Positions 81 to 35,333 of a stretch of 64,000 nt of DNA are shown piece by piece; within the stretch, counting starts at the first letter, position 1, and the number at the start of each line of letters is the position of its first letter. The notes below the pieces were generated by a model. The model was not told the origin of the DNA and searched no databases. It worked only from the letters and a program-made list of their open reading frames with translations. This stretch comes from Oscillospiraceae bacterium (lineage in GTDB: Bacteria; Bacillota; Clostridia; Oscillospirales; CAG-272), in the NCBI GenBank assembly GCA_015065385.1, contig SVQK01000056.1:186001-250000 (forward strand), given 5' to 3'. The translations under genes and the position numbers were made by a program.

Positions 81-223
81 TGGAACATTCTGCAAAATTC
101 GAGAAGGTAAAGGCTTACTATAAGTCTGGCCTCTGGAACATCACCAAGGTGAGAAACGCCGTCGTGAAGGGATGGATCACCGAAGCTGAGTTCGAGGAAA
201 TCACAGGAATTACCTACGAATGA
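80..223 (+). CDS. XkdX family phage protein
   Basis: A 47-residue protein starting at ATG 80, which overlaps the previous stop. It has the typical XkdX layout: a short basic N-terminus, a central aromatic stretch (KVKAYYKSGLW), a GWIT turn, then an acidic helix ending EEITGITYE. XkdX proteins are tiny conserved proteins at the end of the tail module of Bacillus and clostridial siphophages; their role is unknown. Its TGA overlaps the ATG of the following gene (ATGA). It is too short for ordinary gene callers, so its identity rests on length, pattern and position. Confidence 0.75.
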   Translation: MEHSAKFEKVKAYYKSGLWNITKVRNAVVKGWITEAEFEEITGITYE

Positions 224-729
224 GCGTAATCGTTCCGAAAAGGAAGCTCTCCCGGTACGAAGCGCTGATCTACGCCGAAACGCTGCAAAAAGAGCTGACT
301 GATTTAATGCTCAGAGATTTCGGGATAAAAGATATGAACCGTATGCTGAGGAATCAGGCGTTTGCAGCGTCCGGCTGTGATATTCGGTCTGAGGAAGAAT
401 ACAGGCTGGCCTGTCGGAAAACAGCGTGGCTGTTCAGTGAGATCAAGAAAAGGATCAATTATCTGACCTCTCTGCTCACAGCCAATCTCAGAGCGGCGCA
501 TTCGAGATTTCCGATGACTCTGCATGAATACGAGATCCGGAGGGACTGCCTGAACGGAGCGATCGTCAACTGTGAGCAGATCAAACAGGAACTGCAAAGA
601 TCCGTTGAAATGTTCGCAGTTGACTTAAACGTATACGAACGCTCTATAAAAGCGATCAACACAGAAATTGAGTTGATAAAGTCTTGGCGATCCCGCGATA
701 ATAAGATCCGAGTAAAGATCAAGGGGTAG
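220..729 (+). CDS. avd: DGR accessory variability protein (Avd-like four-helix bundle)
   Basis: This 169-residue, Lys/Arg-rich and almost wholly helical protein fits the Avd class, basic four-helix-bundle proteins that bind the DGR reverse transcriptase and template RNA. Visible Avd-like features are the N-terminal helix with LTDLMLRDFGI, the central ANLRAAHSRFP segment, an acidic EYEIRRD helix, and the C-terminal ELIKSWRSRDNKI block. It is somewhat longer than the classic Avd of about 125 residues, in line with the longer Avd-like proteins of Firmicutes phages. The start overlaps the XkdX stop and lacks a strong ribosome site, so translation is probably coupled. The adenine-rich template repeat follows directly after its TAG. 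Function is inferred from pattern and context. Confidence 0.7.
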   Translation: MSVIVPKRKLSRYEALIYAETLQKELTDLMLRDFGIKDMNRMLRNQAFAASGCDIRSEEEYRLACRKTAWLFSEIKKRINYLTSLLTANLRAAHSRFPMTLHEYEIRRDCLNGAIVNCEQIKQELQRSVEMFAVDLNVYERSIKAINTEIELIKSWRSRDNKIRVKIKG

Positions 730-731
730 TG

Positions 732-896
732 TCTATTTGCGTTTCTGCGACCAACTTCGCCAATGTCAACAACAATGGCAATGCGAACAACAACAACGCG
801 TCGAACAGCAATGGGGTTCGTCCAGATTCTCTGCCAACAACAGGGAAGGAGACATTATCAATTCCCGGAAGGGATGAAAAACAAAGCCGGACGTAA
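732..896 (+). repeat. DGR template repeat (TR), adenine-rich
   Basis: The space between avd and the reverse transcriptase is an AAC-rich stretch. Read in one frame it encodes ATNFANV, then the Asn-rich core VNNNGNANNNNASNSNG, then VRPDSLP, and it ends at TAA 894-896. This is the usual make-up of DGR templates: AAC codons in surface positions, where adenine-specific mutagenesis can give many residues, followed by a fixed VRPD segment typical of C-type-lectin/FGE-like variable domains. The frame has no start codon of its own, so it is a template and not a gene. The exact TR borders and the initiation of mutagenic homing (IMH) sequence need the matching variable repeat, which lies outside the window. 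Confidence 0.8.
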
Positions 897-929
897 TTTA
901 CTACGGTAAGTATTACTATAACGGTTAAT

Positions 930-2207
930 ATGGCAACAAAATACGAAGACCTTATTTGCGACGCCAATGTTCTTTATAAGGCCTACAAGGCCTCGGTCAA
1001 GGGCAGTAAGTGGAAAGAATCCACTCAGAAGTTCATGCTCAATTTTCTGAGCTATATTTTCGAGCTTCTTGACAAGCTCGTGACGCGGACATATGAAAAC
1101 GGTCCGACCGATGAGTTTGAACTGCATGAACGAGGCCGGATCAGGCCTATCACAAGTCTGTGCGTATCGGACAGAATTATCCGTCACGTTCTCTGCGACG
1201 AGGTGTTTCTGCCGGAAGTGCGGAAGAAGATCATCTACGACAACGGAGCATCCATCAACGGGCGCGGATTGGCTCATTCCAGAAAGAGATTTGAAGTACA
1301 TCTGCGCAGGTACTTCAAAGAATATGGAAACAATGGATACATCCTGTTCGGTGACTTCTCCAAATTCTATGATAATATCGTACATGAGATCGCAAAACGC
1401 GAATTGCTCAAACTGGTTGACGACGATGAATTTGTAGAGTGGCTGCTGACTTTGATATTTAACGGTTTCAGAGTTGACGTCTCTTTCATGACAGATGATG
1501 AATATTCGAAGTGCATGACTTCGTGTTTCAACAAGCTGGATTACCGAGAAATTCCAAAGAGCGAACTGACCGGCGAGAAATACATGGAGAAATCGGTCAA
1601 CATAGGAGATCAGCTGTCACAGATTATCGGAGTTTATTACCCATATAGGATCGACAACTATGTCAAATACGTCCGAAGTCAAAAGTATTACGGGAGATAC
1701 ATGGATGACTTCTATATCATGAATCCGTCAAAAGAAGCGCTTGCAGATATTATGGACCACATCAAAATCATTGCGAGTGAGCTGGGAATACATATCAACG
1801 ATAAGAAAACAAGAATCGTAAAGATCAAAGGGCCCTACCGTTACCTCCAATTTCGTTATGAATTGCTCGATAACGGAAAGATTGTTGTAAAAATCAATCA
1901 GAAGCGCGTGACGTGTATGAGGCAAAAGCTGAAAAAGCTGGCTGCGAAACTTGCTCGCGGTGAAAGAAAATATGAAAATATTGAAGGCATGTTCAGAGGA
2001 TGGATGTGCGAATTCTATAAATATATGTCAAAAGAACAGAGAAAGAATATGCTGTCTTTGTATGAGGATTTATTCAAGAAAACAATTCGGATCATAAAGA
2101 AGCCGAATAATAAGAACAAGATGATCATTGAAGACAGAAACGATGTTCAAAAGGAGGTATCACAGTATGGCTCTGACAATAAAGAAGGTCACAATGCCAG
2201 CGGATAA
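930..2207 (+). CDS. DGR reverse transcriptase
   Basis: A 425-residue RNA-directed DNA polymerase. Finger/palm motifs occur in order: RIRPITSL (motif 2), FGDFSKFYDN with the first catalytic Asp (about residue 143), IGDQLSQ at about 225-231, and GRYMDDFYIM with the catalytic YMDD at about 257-260. A thumb-like Lys-rich C-terminus follows. The [ILV]GxxxSQ form of motif 4 replaces the QGxxxSP of retroviral, retron and group II intron enzymes and is diagnostic of DGR enzymes. There is no maturase or endonuclease domain. The length matches DGR enzymes. The start at ATG 930 has a weak ribosome site. The C-terminus overlaps the start of the amidase gene. It should copy the template RNA with adenine errors into the target gene. 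Confidence 0.92.
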   Translation: MATKYEDLICDANVLYKAYKASVKGSKWKESTQKFMLNFLSYIFELLDKLVTRTYENGPTDEFELHERGRIRPITSLCVSDRIIRHVLCDEVFLPEVRKKIIYDNGASINGRGLAHSRKRFEVHLRRYFKEYGNNGYILFGDFSKFYDNIVHEIAKRELLKLVDDDEFVEWLLTLIFNGFRVDVSFMTDDEYSKCMTSCFNKLDYREIPKSELTGEKYMEKSVNIGDQLSQIIGVYYPYRIDNYVKYVRSQKYYGRYMDDFYIMNPSKEALADIMDHIKIIASELGIHINDKKTRIVKIKGPYRYLQFRYELLDNGKIVVKINQKRVTCMRQKLKKLAAKLARGERKYENIEGMFRGWMCEFYKYMSKEQRKNMLSLYEDLFKKTIRIIKKPNNKNKMIIEDRNDVQKEVSQYGSDNKEGHNASG

Positions 2208-3390
2208 AGTACCCATAAAGTGCCCGTATACAATGACGCCGACAAGAATCGTCATCCACAATACGGCGAATGACGCCAGCGCGCTGAATGAAATCAAATA
2301 CATGCAGTCCAACAATAATCAGGTTTCCTTTCATTATGCCGTTGACGATAAGATGGCTGTGCAGGGGATCGAGCTTTGGCGGAACGCATGGCACGCCGGA
2401 GACGGCGGAAGCGAGAAAAGCCTCGGAAATCGGCAGGGAATTGCCATCGAGATCTGTTATTCCAAGTCCGGCGGCGAGCGGTTTATCAAGGCCGAACAGA
2501 ACGCCGCAGAACTTGCCGCGCAGCTTTTGATCGATTTCGGCTGGGGGCTCGATAAAATCACGAAGCATCAGGATTACTCCGGCAAATACTGTCCGCACAG
2601 GACGCTTGACATGGGCTGGGATCGGTTTGTAAAAATGGTCGAAGAGAAACGCAACGCTCTGCTCAAAGCGAACAAAGCCGCGGATGTGACCAAAACGACG
2701 CTGAACGGCTATACGATCGAGCGGGCAAAAGACTTCTCCATCCTGTACTGGGACAAGTCCAAGAAGAAGGGAACCGCACAGTCTTACATCAACGGAGGAT
2801 TCTTCGGAGTTTACAAAGAGGGTAACATAACATTTACCCTGCCTGTCGGAAACCTCATTTGCGATGTGATCCCGGACAGTCGGCTTGTCTATTCGGTTCA
2901 GAAGTACTGGAAGCCTTATGTGAGCGGCGGAAAATTCCGTTACGGAACCGCTGACAATGTTTCGGGTCAGTTCCGTGGAAAGAAGGTCACGACGCTGGTT
3001 CTTCCGACAAACGGAGCTCCCTATGTGGACGAGCTGTCCGCTGCTCCCGTTTCCTCGCGCTATGCCATTTCCGGCATTCCGGTCATTCGGAATGGGGTGG
3101 ATGTTAGTTACAACAGTTTCGTCAAACCTCAGGGCTGGGACGATTCGCCTTTCTATGCGACGAGCCGTAATTTCATCGGGCTGAAGGGAACGTCTCTGTG
3201 GATCGTCACGGGAACTTCGAAAACCGCAAATTTCGTTGCCACATCGGAAGTTTATGAAAAGATCAAAGACTTTGGATTCAACGATCTGATCGCGCTGGAC
3301 GGCGGAGGCTCTTACTACCACAAGTATGAAGGAAAGGCGGCCTTTGTCTGGAGCGACCGGGATGTCAGCAATCTGGTGGCGTTCGGATGA
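2167..3390 (+). CDS. Phage endolysin: N-acetylmuramoyl-L-alanine amidase with C-terminal phosphodiester glycosidase (NAGPA) domain
   Basis: The start is ATG 2167, preceded by AAGGAGG at about 2151 and lying inside the 3' end of the reverse transcriptase gene; the product is 407 residues. Residues about 20-160 form an amidase_2 (T7 lysozyme-like) domain with likely zinc ligands in RIVIHNTAND, NAWHAGDGG and YCPHRTLD, expected to cut the MurNAc-L-Ala bond. Residues about 190-407 match the NAGPA-like phosphodiester alpha-GlcNAcase domain (INGGFFG near its start, DLIALDGGGS near its end). No signal peptide is seen, so it would need the holin to leave the cell. The two-domain layout is known in some clostridial prophages; the substrate of the second domain is not established. 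Confidence 0.85.
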   Translation: MALTIKKVTMPADKVPIKCPYTMTPTRIVIHNTANDASALNEIKYMQSNNNQVSFHYAVDDKMAVQGIELWRNAWHAGDGGSEKSLGNRQGIAIEICYSKSGGERFIKAEQNAAELAAQLLIDFGWGLDKITKHQDYSGKYCPHRTLDMGWDRFVKMVEEKRNALLKANKAADVTKTTLNGYTIERAKDFSILYWDKSKKKGTAQSYINGGFFGVYKEGNITFTLPVGNLICDVIPDSRLVYSVQKYWKPYVSGGKFRYGTADNVSGQFRGKKVTTLVLPTNGAPYVDELSAAPVSSRYAISGIPVIRNGVDVSYNSFVKPQGWDDSPFYATSRNFIGLKGTSLWIVTGTSKTANFVATSEVYEKIKDFGFNDLIALDGGGSYYHKYEGKAAFVWSDRDVSNLVAFG

Positions 3391-4909: not shown

Positions 4910-6181
4910 ATGATGCCGCAACGCAAAGACATGAAAAACCGGAACTTGCTTCCGGGTGAGTACCAAAAATCTGATGGGAGGTATGAGTATCGTTACACAG
5001 ATACAAATGGAAAACAGCGTTCTGTGTACAGTTGGATGCTGACACAGACTGATCGTCCCCCGGCAGGAAAATCATCACCGAAGTGCCTTCGGGAAATCGA
5101 ACGCGAGATCGCAAAAGATTTGCAGGACGAGATAGATAGATTCAAGGCACGAAAAATGACGCTCAACGCTTTCTATCTGGACTACATCGAGAATAAAAAG
5201 GAACTCAAGGAAACCACCAGAGTGAACTATAAATATATGTACAAAACCTTTGTGTGGGAGGAGTTTGGCGCAAAAAAGCTGCCGGACATTAAGTATTCCG
5301 ATGTAAAGAGATTCTACAATCATCTCATGCGGGACTGTCACATGAAACCCAACACACTTGAGACAATCCACACAATCTTGCATCCGATTTTCGGCACGGC
5401 GGTTCGCGACGGCTACATTCGCACAAACCCCACGGACGGGGTTATGGCAGAGATCAAGAAAAGTAACGATTGGGAGAAACCAAAACGTCATGCTTTGACT
5501 GAGTCGCAACAGATCGCGTTCATAGAGTACATTCGCGACCATCAAACCTATAGTCATTGGCTGCCGCTCATGACGGTTCTGCTCGGGACAGGCGGGCGTG
5601 TCGGAGAAATTCTCGGTCTGACTTGGGACGATGTGGATTTTAGCAATGAAGTTATCAATATCAATCATAATCTACTCTACCACATCAGCGAAGAAACTGG
5701 AAAGGCAAAACTGTCTGTCGGTACACCAAAGACCCGCTCCGGCGAAAGAGAGATTCCAATGTTTTCGGCAGTCAAGGAAACGCTGCTAAAGCTCTATGAG
5801 GAGCAAAAATGCGATGGCTTCTGTAAAACAAATGTGGACGGGTATACAGGTTTCATCTTTATGAACCGATTCGGAGACGTACTTACACCGCCTTGCGTAA
5901 ACCGGGTCATCAATCGTGTTCTACGTGATTATAATATTGAGGAAGGAATGCGCGCGGAAAAGGAAGACCGGGAGCCGACATATCTCCCACACTTCTCGGT
6001 GCACAATCTGCGGCACACATTCTGTACGAGGATGTGCGAGAACGAAACCAATCTGAAAATCATTCAAGAGATCATGGGCCACTCCGATATCACCACGACG
6101 ATGGACATCTACAACGAAGCGACGCGGGAAAAGAAGCGGGAATCGTTCTCCAATCTCGAAGGAAAGATGAAGATCTGCTGA
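4910..6181 (+). CDS. int: Tyrosine integrase (Tn916/Lambda type)
   Basis: A 423-residue site-specific recombinase with ATG 4910 behind AAGGAG (a second in-frame ATG follows at once). The N-terminus (about 1-60) resembles the AP2-like arm-binding domain, about 75-170 is the SAM-like core-binding domain, and about 190-420 is the catalytic domain. Catalytic residues are visible: Arg in GTGGRVGEILGL, His-x-x-Arg in HNLRHTF, His in MGHSD, and the nucleophile Tyr in TMDIY near the C-terminus. It inserts and, with Xis, excises this prophage. The attachment site lies just downstream, at the border with the metG fragment. Confidence 0.95.
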   Translation: MMPQRKDMKNRNLLPGEYQKSDGRYEYRYTDTNGKQRSVYSWMLTQTDRPPAGKSSPKCLREIEREIAKDLQDEIDRFKARKMTLNAFYLDYIENKKELKETTRVNYKYMYKTFVWEEFGAKKLPDIKYSDVKRFYNHLMRDCHMKPNTLETIHTILHPIFGTAVRDGYIRTNPTDGVMAEIKKSNDWEKPKRHALTESQQIAFIEYIRDHQTYSHWLPLMTVLLGTGGRVGEILGLTWDDVDFSNEVININHNLLYHISEETGKAKLSVGTPKTRSGEREIPMFSAVKETLLKLYEEQKCDGFCKTNVDGYTGFIFMNRFGDVLTPPCVNRVINRVLRDYNIEEGMRAEKEDREPTYLPHFSVHNLRHTFCTRMCENETNLKIIQEIMGHSDITTTMDIYNEATREKKRESFSNLEGKMKIC

Positions 6182-9506: not shown

Positions 9507-11012
9507 TCAGCCGCCCTGCTCCGGCGTGCTTTCGATTTCCCGATAGGCATCGATCATCTTGTCGATCGTTTTGGTGATGACCTTGGAGCGGGATTTGACG
9601 GCGGAGGCAAGGTCCTTATTGTTGTTGTAGAACATCGCCACCACAAAGGTGTCGCGGATCGAATCCACCATGATGGTGTCGCCGAAGTCCACGATCCGGT
9701 GCTCCAGATAGACGTCGATCATCGCGGAGGAATCCTCGTCCCGGGCGAACTTGGATTTCAGCGCGATGTCCTTGTAGGCGGGAACGACGCTGTTGAAGGA
9801 TTCGCAGTTCAGGGCTTCGAGCACAATGGAGGACATTTCCGGACTCGGCACGGTGACCGGGATCACGGAGGCGTCGTAGAAGGAGATCCGGCTGTAGTAG
9901 TCGGCCTGATTCTCGTCGAACTTCGGGAAGGGCACGATGCCGAAGTCGTAGTCCATGTCGCGGAGGGATTCGATGTAGTAGAAGATCGTGGCGAGGAAGA
10001 GTCCCTGATTGTTGCGGAACATATCGTGGTATTCCACAGCCTCGTTCGTGGTGTCGTTCGTGAGATACCACGCGTTGTTGTCGTTCAGCACGGCGAAGGT
10101 CTTTTCGAACACGGAGAGGAAGTGCTCGTCGGTGTTCATCGTGAGAACCGGGATGTTGTCCGCGTTCTTCGAGATGTACCACGCGCCGCCGGCGGGAAGG
10201 AACGCGCAGTGCAGGAATTTGCATGTGCCGAGCGCGCCCCACTGATCGCTGTTGTTCAGTACGCCGTCGCCGTCGAGATCCATCGTGACGGACGAAGCCA
10301 TGGTCCCGAACAGATCGAAGGTCCACTTGCCCTCCCGCACCGTCGCATACAGATCGTCGAACTGATACCGGGCGAAGAGATCCTTGTTGAACAGCAGGAC
10401 GTCCATGAAGTCGATCGTGGTCAGGTTCGCCGATCCGATCGCCGTGAAATACCGGTTACCGACCGCGATCATACGGGTCAGTTCGTCGTCCCAGTAGGGC
10501 TTGTCGAGCTTGATGTACTCCATCTTGCTGATGTCGAAGCACATGCTCTTCTGCGCCATCTTGTCCGCGGCGGTACACCGGACGTTCATGAGGGAAAAGG
10601 TGTCGTCCCCGGACTGGACGTTGTTCTGCGCCATGATTTCGTCGGAATAGACGGTCTCGGTGAACGCGATGTTGAACCGGTCCGCGGTTTTCAGATTCCG
10701 CTCGTAGATCGCGTCGTTGAGGACCTCACCGGTCATCTCCTCGGCAAGATAGGCGTAGTGGGTGGTGTTGGAGCGGGTGTAGATGTTGAAGGCGGCTCCG
10801 TCGTAGTTCCGCTCGGGCAGATCGTCCGTGACCGTCTCCGGCTCGTCGGGTTCGGCTTCGGCGGCGCTGCCCGGATCGGCGGATGAGGCCGCGCTGTTCT
10901 GCGAGGCGGGCGCGTCTTCGGCGGCGTTTTCCGTCTGCTGCGAGCAGGAGGAGAGCACGGGGAGCGCGCACGTCAGCAGCGCGAGAAGAAGGGCGGCTGT
11001 TTTTTGTCTCAT
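9507..11012 (-). CDS. Extracellular solute-binding lipoprotein of a sugar ABC transporter
   Basis: A 501-residue lipoprotein. It has a signal peptide with lipobox VLSSC (Cys about residue 23), then an acidic low-complexity linker (to about 65), then a periplasmic-binding-protein fold of family 1 (sugar type). Visible blocks are FNIAFTETVYSDEIMAQNNV, a central DLDGDGVLNNSDQWG segment resembling a calcium-binding loop, and the Trp/Tyr-rich GGAWYISKN segment. No permease genes are adjacent, so the transporter partner is elsewhere. It has its own promoter and an AGAGGT ribosome site, and the glycosidase follows downstream, suggesting linked oligosaccharide uptake and breakdown. Confidence 0.85.
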   Translation of the reverse strand: MRQKTAALLLALLTCALPVLSSCSQQTENAAEDAPASQNSAASSADPGSAAEAEPDEPETVTDDLPERNYDGAAFNIYTRSNTTHYAYLAEEMTGEVLNDAIYERNLKTADRFNIAFTETVYSDEIMAQNNVQSGDDTFSLMNVRCTAADKMAQKSMCFDISKMEYIKLDKPYWDDELTRMIAVGNRYFTAIGSANLTTIDFMDVLLFNKDLFARYQFDDLYATVREGKWTFDLFGTMASSVTMDLDGDGVLNNSDQWGALGTCKFLHCAFLPAGGAWYISKNADNIPVLTMNTDEHFLSVFEKTFAVLNDNNAWYLTNDTTNEAVEYHDMFRNNQGLFLATIFYYIESLRDMDYDFGIVPFPKFDENQADYYSRISFYDASVIPVTVPSPEMSSIVLEALNCESFNSVVPAYKDIALKSKFARDEDSSAMIDVYLEHRIVDFGDTIMVDSIRDTFVVAMFYNNNKDLASAVKSRSKVITKTIDKMIDAYREIESTPEQGG

Positions 11013-34194: not shown

Positions 34195-34704
34195 ATGGGA
34201 AGAATGCAGATTCGCTGCCACGGCGATGATACCAGATTTGAAGTGCTTGCAGACTTTGTTTATGAGCGCTATGGAAAATCGGTCAAGTACATCGCCGACG
34301 TGGCGGGAGGTCAGGGTGTGTTAAGCAGACTTCTCAACAAAAGGTATAACTATGTCAGTGAAGTGATCGACCCTCGTGTTTACGTTGTGAAGGGTGTTAA
34401 ACAGACGGTTTCAGAATATGACTCGGAAATGGCTTCCTATTATGATCTGATTATCGGTCTGCATCCCGACGAAGCGACACGCCCGGTTGTCGAGAGCGCT
34501 TTCTCGAGGCCGGTGATCGTTGTACCTTGCTGTAATTATTGGGACAAAACAAGAAAACTCGGCTCAAAGGCTATCGCCGAAGACATAGCGCTGTATTACG
34601 AAAAGAACGGAATCGAGTTCAAAATGGAGACGCTCCCAATGAAGTATCCCAATATTGTTGTATATACTTCCGGGAAGAAAACGTCAGACAGGGGGAAGAA
34701 ATGA
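34195..34704 (+). CDS. SAM-dependent methyltransferase-like protein
   Basis: A 169-residue protein with a motif I-like glycine loop (VKYIADVAGGQGVLSRLL, about 27-44) followed by an acidic strand end (EVIDPRVYV) and YDLIIGLHPDEATRPVV, the order of a small Rossmann-fold class I methyltransferase. The substrate is unknown; related short proteins in Clostridia are uncharacterised. Ribosome site AAGGAG is 12 bases from the ATG, a long gap. Codons are more AT-rich than in the following gene, which may mean transfer. Its stop overlaps the next ATG. Confidence 0.6.
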   Translation: MGRMQIRCHGDDTRFEVLADFVYERYGKSVKYIADVAGGQGVLSRLLNKRYNYVSEVIDPRVYVVKGVKQTVSEYDSEMASYYDLIIGLHPDEATRPVVESAFSRPVIVVPCCNYWDKTRKLGSKAIAEDIALYYEKNGIEFKMETLPMKYPNIVVYTSGKKTSDRGKK

Positions 34705-35333
34705 AAATCGAAACAGAAAGACTGATCGTCCGTCCGTTCCGCGAGGAAGACGCCGACGCGCTGTACAGGATCAAAACCGATCCGCAGGTGAAGGAATACT
34801 GCCCGGATTTTCTGGATGTTGACGTCAGTCGGGAGGACATGCCCGACTGGATCCGCAGATTCCGGCAGGTCGAGGAAGACGGGGACATGGACTCGTGGCG
34901 CTGTTACGCGATCGAGAACAGGGAAACCGGAGAGGTCATGGGTTGCCTTTCCTTCTGCAAACAGAATATGCTCCGCGAATACGATCTGGGGTGGATGATG
35001 ATCGGCACATACACCGGGCGGGGATACGCGTCCGAAGCGGCAGAGGCGTTTGCCGAAACCTTCTGCCGGACGCACGGGATCGACTATCTGACCGTCGTCA
35101 TGGACGTGGACAATCCGGCTTCCCGGCGGACGGCGGAGAAAAGCGGATTCCGCCTCTTCGAGAAGCGGACGGTTTACGACTATTCTTACAACCGTTTTTG
35201 CGACGACTATTACTACTTTCGCCGTTACTGGTCCGGCTGTACGTTGAAGGAGCGGTATTATGGAGATATCCCTTATTACGGACGGTCAACATCGGATGGA
35301 AAGGACGAGCCGCACGGACAAGATGCGGACTGA
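34701..35333 (+). CDS. GNAT family N-acetyltransferase (RimJ/RimL type)
   Basis: A 210-residue acetyltransferase with the N-terminal TERLIVRPFREEDADAL typical of the RimJ/RimL branch, the acetyl-CoA loop region GWMMIGTYTGRGYASEAAEA and the C-terminal VVMDVDNPASRRTAEKSGF. It may acetylate a protein N-terminus or a small amine. The ATG overlaps the methyltransferase-like stop (ATGA), with AGGGGGA as the ribosome site. Confidence 0.88.
   Translation: MKIETERLIVRPFREEDADALYRIKTDPQVKEYCPDFLDVDVSREDMPDWIRRFRQVEEDGDMDSWRCYAIENRETGEVMGCLSFCKQNMLREYDLGWMMIGTYTGRGYASEAAEAFAETFCRTHGIDYLTVVMDVDNPASRRTAEKSGFRLFEKRTVYDYSYNRFCDDYYYFRRYWSGCTLKERYYGDIPYYGRSTSDGKDEPHGQDAD

Follow-up and report, generated by a model that had tools for sequence, protein, structure and literature searches.

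A prophage diversity-generating retroelement whose single template very probably serves a tail-adjacent gene and a remote early gene

Which genes does the mutagenic cassette at the left edge of this stretch of DNA rewrite, and do they all belong to the phage tail? Diversity-generating retroelements (DGRs) of phages have mostly been understood as a means of switching tropism; here, one template repeat (TR) very probably feeds an early, replication-side gene as well. The stretch analysed (the window) comprises 64,000 nucleotides and corresponds to positions 186001–250000 of contig C45 in an Oscillospiraceae genome of 4.3 Mb and 128 contigs. Positions prefixed with C45 are those of the contig, all others those of the window.

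The first-pass annotation had proposed an Avd-like protein, an AAC-rich template and a reverse transcriptase (RT) with YMDD and IGDQLSQ at 220–2207, and all three were found there on the forward strand. The RT (930..2207; 425 aa) matched PF00078 (E = 3.3e-16) and phrog_1423, ‘Reverse transcriptase’ (E = 2.4e-58), and an alignment of six RTs had as its top solved-structure match 8ub7, ‘Reverse transcriptase’ (E = 4.5e-13), which we take to be the RT of phage BPP-1. Besides YMDD, its IGDQLSQ follows the [ILV]GxxxSQ form that marks DGR-type RTs. The avd-like gene (220..729) encodes 169 aa and is, as had been noted from the sequence, longer than the classic Avd of about 128 aa. Searched alone, its product matched phrog_3206, ‘Avd protein of DGR’, only weakly (E = 0.038) and not at E ≤ 0.001; as 16 of the 18 proteins in an alignment of homologues (A4) matched phrog_3206, with a best E of 1.5e-19, the window protein is taken as an Avd. 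A sequence search for solved Avd relatives gave no convincing match. The template, first placed at 732–896, is indeed present and adjoins the RT gene, with a shorter core (about 740–833) as judged from its alignments with two variable repeats (VRs) and from an adenine-masked pattern.

These VRs were located by a whole-genome search with the template, which returned two strong further matches, both on C45. VR1 (C45:185579–185664, about –421 in the window) forms the 3′ end of a 277-aa tail-adjacent gene, 1.16 kb left of the TR, and differs from it at 14 of 86 nt, 13 of these at template adenines. VR2 (C45:136672–136762, about –49328) forms the 3′ end of a 168-aa gene in the early region, 50 kb upstream of the TR, with 20 of its 21 mismatches over 91 nt at template adenines. 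A repeat had thus been predicted correctly for VR1’s position, to be reached by extending the window leftward and aligning the template; the first-pass reading would have lost its footing with no VR in the genome or with differences away from template adenines, neither of which occurred. When the TR adenines were masked, the resulting pattern (≤3 mismatches) had three sites in the 4.3-Mb genome, namely the TR, VR1 and VR2, and its reversed control had none. All three repeats share the conserved 3′ end GGGGTTCGTCC. An identical 25-nt hairpin directly follows VR1 and VR2, and its sequence occurs nowhere else in the genome at ≤3 mismatches. Adenine-focused VRs, a conserved repeat 3′ end and a hairpin after the VR, with none after the TR, are among the hallmarks of a DGR, and in all likelihood this is a two-target system in which one template rewrites both the tail-adjacent and the remote early gene.

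Both targets lie in one prophage. Its right end is marked by an integrase gene (4910..6181, forward strand; PF00589, E = 2.1e-27), and G+C content climbs from about 0.48 to 0.57–0.60 past about 6–7 kb of the window. An IMG/VR contig of 80,076 bases, which by its coordinates would cover about C45:112,106–192,181 with the integrase at its end, was identical in both stretches compared (12,504 and 11,252, together 23,756 bases); it probably represents the same assembly as the window’s, and no variation was seen in the window’s own copy. The VR1 gene comes after tail genes (tape measure, Dit, tail protein), and the cassette is directly followed by an amidase endolysin gene (2128..3390, forward strand; PF01510, E = 2.1e-18; phrog_3088, E = 9.4e-73; its start at 2128 is a TTG, the first possible one), in keeping with the original placement of the DGR between tail module and lysis genes. 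VR2 is preceded by genes for a DNA polymerase (C45:123117) and a helicase (C45:133187) and followed by a phrog_4291 polymerase gene (C45:151867–154773) and the terminase (C45:159795). A 17-bp repeat at C45:114176 and C45:190556 was considered as a pair of attachment sites and found unconvincing, its second copy being located upstream of the integrase. The endolysin combines its amidase with a C-terminal phosphodiester-glycosidase-like (NAGPA) part that falls just under the Pfam cut-off. Further, two head-region genes of the prophage (C45:157613–158701 and C45:162644–163144) share HHGILGMKWG[VI]RRYQN near their N-termini.

The pairing of tail-side and early VRs is kept across many prophages. 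Relatives of the early target were collected from IMG/VR (13 loci, or 25 with an alignment as query) and from species genomes (35 loci, by title mostly Lachnospiraceae and other Clostridia). The RT search took 30 of these 35 genome loci, in 28 genomes, and left out L063, L076, L089, L091 and L093, of which L076 lies in a genome already covered. Twenty-four of the 28 genomes matched the window-clade RT profile at E ≤ 1e-15 and four had no such RT at this threshold; all 24 RT-bearing genomes had, in the early locus, a TR match with adenine-specific differences. The first IMG/VR set (12 records without the window’s own) contained the RT in six records, five of them with an early match, and 12 further records gave the same counts (RT in six, early match in five). 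Five more records were reached via the RT; three had an early homologue, in one case in two pieces, and all three an early match. Altogether, 37 of 39 records with both RT and early homologue showed an adenine-specific early TR match, a partly redundant count, with the 45 early VR sites reducing to 41 different VR and 32 different TR sequences and some loci being identical (L027/L076, L101/L102). The match was absent from two records: in G007 the TR probably lies past the contig end, and in G052 the homologue is cut by it. For G033 and G034, the matched site is located about 3 kb beyond the bait gene, within the same locus, and eight of the 37 records carry two TR-matched sites in their early loci. 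On the tail side, where a TR match of at least 70 nt was required, a VR was found in 33 of 40 RT loci and in all six of the other seven for which longer stretches were taken, giving a tail-side VR in 39 of 40.

How specific to adenines are the early sites? Over trimmed segments of the 45 sites in 37 records (L094:424, being the tail-side VR of its record, was left out), 687 of 1093 template adenines were changed, compared with 17 of 2737 other bases; two of 408 VR adenines faced a non-adenine in the template. Trimmed counts flatter this pattern, because both the trimming score and the site-finding rule disfavour non-adenine mismatches; fixed 90-nt windows, which include some flank, gave 698 of 1106 adenines versus 201 of 2944 other bases. 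General TR similarity among relatives was considered as the whole cause of the early match and rejected on a template-swap control. At 35 of 46 sites (11 lacked an anchor and were omitted; one of the 46 later proved to be a tail-side VR), the record’s own template left a mean of 0.23 non-adenine mismatches per 59 nt, with none at 30 of the 35 sites, compared to 3.10 for the templates of other records, where 61 of 1174 comparisons were free of them. Hairpins of at least 5 bp followed 42 of the 45 VRs and none of the 45 TRs, with a shuffled expectation of 0.69; for at least 6 bp, the counts were 25 of 45 VRs versus no TR.

The strongest evidence for a two-target DGR is natural variation between near-identical phages. 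Twenty-five pairs of early loci were at least 97% alike and spanned the VR. For instance, L022 and L031 differed at 16 positions in the VR window and at 0 of 10,865 outside it, all 16 falling on adenines of a template taken from a relative. Likewise, there were 17 differences inside and 0 of 12,438 outside for L085/L086 (by title two isolates), 16 and 0 of 6,553 for L028/L084, and 13 and 3 of 12,435 for L068/L090. Pooled over seven pairs, 102 of 106 VR differences fell on template adenines. No difference in the VR window used was found for four of the 25 pairs (L025/L026, L027/L076, L078/L079 and L101/L102); in L078/L079, a TR-matched gene further on differed at 15 sites, 14 of them template adenines. 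Since such near-identical phages differ almost only within the early VR, this target evidently undergoes natural diversification, as seen in relatives and not in the window’s copy: in these relatives the early gene varies and its surroundings do not. This is in accord with RT-dependent mutagenic homing.

The DGR of phage BPP-1 is arranged as mtd-avd-TR-brt and has one target. The system described here resembles it in the order target-avd-TR-RT, in the VR at the 3′ end of the tail-side gene, in the hairpin after the VR and in adenine mutagenesis, and differs in its longer Avd and in the second, remote early target. By analogy with BPP-1, the TR would be transcribed and copied by RT and Avd with errors at adenines, and homing of the cDNA would replace the 3′ ends of two putative C-type-lectin-like genes. 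Going by position, the first of these would be a tail-adjacent gene, probably of the adsorption apparatus, and the second an early gene whose product probably acts inside the cell, in host takeover or counter-defence.

Isolated cases of phage DGRs with two targets and a distal VR have already been published. The Quimbyvirus DGR, in the passages of PMC8008677 that describe it, has one target after the tail genes and a second, distal and non-structural one with a C-type lectin domain, and by this description is like ours in combining a tail-side with a distal target; unlike here, its carriers are Bacteroides phages, its RT is spread over three overlapping frames, and its second target is encoded within a defence-related island, on the other strand. 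Passages of PMC12629997 report four species of gut prophage in which a second VR, distal from the RT, lies close to counter-defence genes, again similar by description, and name no conserved target family. The Roseburia phage Shimadzu (LR596903.1), whose two targets are mentioned in part of a paper on Faecalibacterium prophages (PMC11792537), carries its second VR in orf43, a gene flanked by those for a DNA methyltransferase and the Erf recombinase. This orf43 resembles the early family (tblastn, E = 2e-5 over 47% of the query), whereas Shimadzu differs in having an annotated tail sheath and an RT only 28.9% identical. The Acutalibacter phage Fontainebleau (ON453893.1) shares the layout of TR (35100–35203), tail-side VR (34379–34483, in the gene after the tail genes) and early VR (9795–9898, in the gene after DNA polymerase I), and its early protein is 38% identical; it differs in its 39-kb genome and an RT of 40% identity. 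In the openly accessible literature, we found nothing joining Acutalibacter and DGRs. The two-target layout hence reaches beyond the window clade, as Fontainebleau and Shimadzu demonstrate.

Other phages offer looser parallels. Phages nd4 and nd12 have two targets according to the relevant passages of PMC10743442, and nd4 and Lelie each have a large and a small DUF6273 target served by one TR in the descriptions excerpted from PMC10743442 and PMC11792537. The second VR of nd4 lies in the gene directly before an annotated DNA polymerase III alpha gene, that of Lelie in orf58, some 14 kb away from the RT, among neighbours without a named function in the record; a tblastn comparison of both phages with an early-target relative gave no match at E ≤ 1e-3. 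For prophage 3 of C. clostridioforme LM41, a table in PMC11318856 gives an Avd (Orf73), an RT (Orf76) and formylglycine-generating-enzyme-like genes at Orf13 and Orf71, which, judged from that table, seems to repeat the late-plus-early arrangement. According to the passages on method of a large DGR census (PMC8144416), its approach would miss remote targets, so two-target pairings are likely undercounted. A conserved early-target family with population evidence of its diversification was not found in the openly accessible literature. With such a conserved, varying early target, what phage DGRs diversify besides tail proteins becomes testable in cultured hosts.

What, then, do the two target proteins do? 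The tail-adjacent one is probably part of the adsorption apparatus, judging from its position. The earlier proposal that this prophage varies its receptor-binding protein stands insofar as the tail-side gene carries a VR; its receptor-binding identity is plausible by position. Family matches of the tail-side target were weak, limited to DUF6273 and phrog_21980 and to its last residues. For DUF6273 (PF19789; gathering cut-off 23.5 bits), both targets scored below the cut-off, the early one at 20.8 and the tail-side one at 13.1 bits; the early target matched phrog_21980 at E = 1.4e-31. A Foldseek search of the early protein against the PDB gave no match at E ≤ 0.001. Its scaffold is conserved over 43 aligned proteins. 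Among 50 reading frames of early targets, eight are longer than 260 aa (268–292 aa). In the model of one of these (L068), which is weak overall (pLDDT 70.4, pTM 0.57), the extension is largely helical and sits behind a poorly predicted linker. The coiled-coil-like extension of some early targets (L068:6001–6879) carries PRRSGRYPWG, a peptide also found near the start of the window prophage’s phrog_4291 polymerase (MPRRSGRYPWGSG) and possibly a shared targeting peptide.

For the early target we tentatively favour, at close to even probability, an intracellular binder directed against host defences or rival phages, because the gene is replication-side in otherwise unlike phages and stands among proteins of unknown function. 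That both targets are instead virion proteins, the early one being a decoration or accessory adsorption protein with its gene lying apart from the structural module and both VRs serving attachment, seems somewhat unlikely. Such a role would suit two putatively C-type-lectin-like targets, a weak match to phrog_10993 ‘Hoc-like head decoration’ at the VR end of the early protein (E = 0.0023), and the host-binding function that authors propose for the second target of nd4 in the corresponding passages of PMC10743442; however, in the window prophage, Fontainebleau and Shimadzu alike, the early gene has replication genes around it and stands apart from those for head and tail. The commonest neighbours of the early target are DUF6353 proteins, encoded close by in 40 of 46 loci and frequently more than once (e.g. 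L085:8694–9617), and a 55-aa protein just upstream of it, present in 38 of 46. By eye both look membrane-anchored, and the phages that carry the early target are temperate, as one would expect if the early target acted in the lysogen, for example as a membrane superinfection-exclusion factor or a sensor; this is unlikely, though, the early protein itself having, by eye, no membrane or secretion signal. Finally, with 168 aa against about 182 in its relatives (a 13-column gap in alignment A1), the window’s early protein is short, as a functionless relic or a passive recipient sharing template sequence might be, but the conserved scaffold, the hairpin kept at 42 of 45 VRs and the differences at template adenines between near-identical phages make this highly improbable.

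If the early target is an intracellular binder, its binding surface would track a variable bacterial or rival-phage partner. By extension, and with some reserve, since we would put it short of an even chance, a widespread lineage of temperate phages may use one mutagenic template for both a tail-side surface protein and an antibody-like intracellular early protein, the latter recognising fast-changing proteins of host defence or of rival phages, either as infection begins or during lysogeny.

The genome’s other RT was considered as part of the same system and set aside, as it belongs to a separate DGR on the same contig, outside the window (C45:311767–313380, L018), with its own VR, TR and RT. 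Its VR (C45:311767–311874) ends a 1994-aa tail-like gene, and relative to the TR (C45:312079–312186), 14 of 27 template adenines and 3 of 81 other bases are changed, all three of the latter near the end. An identical contig gave no VR difference. The RT of this second DGR (359 aa) has VGFYINQ in place of [ILV]GxxxSQ, and among its relatives (80 loci kept) a minority likewise have N or C at that motif position.
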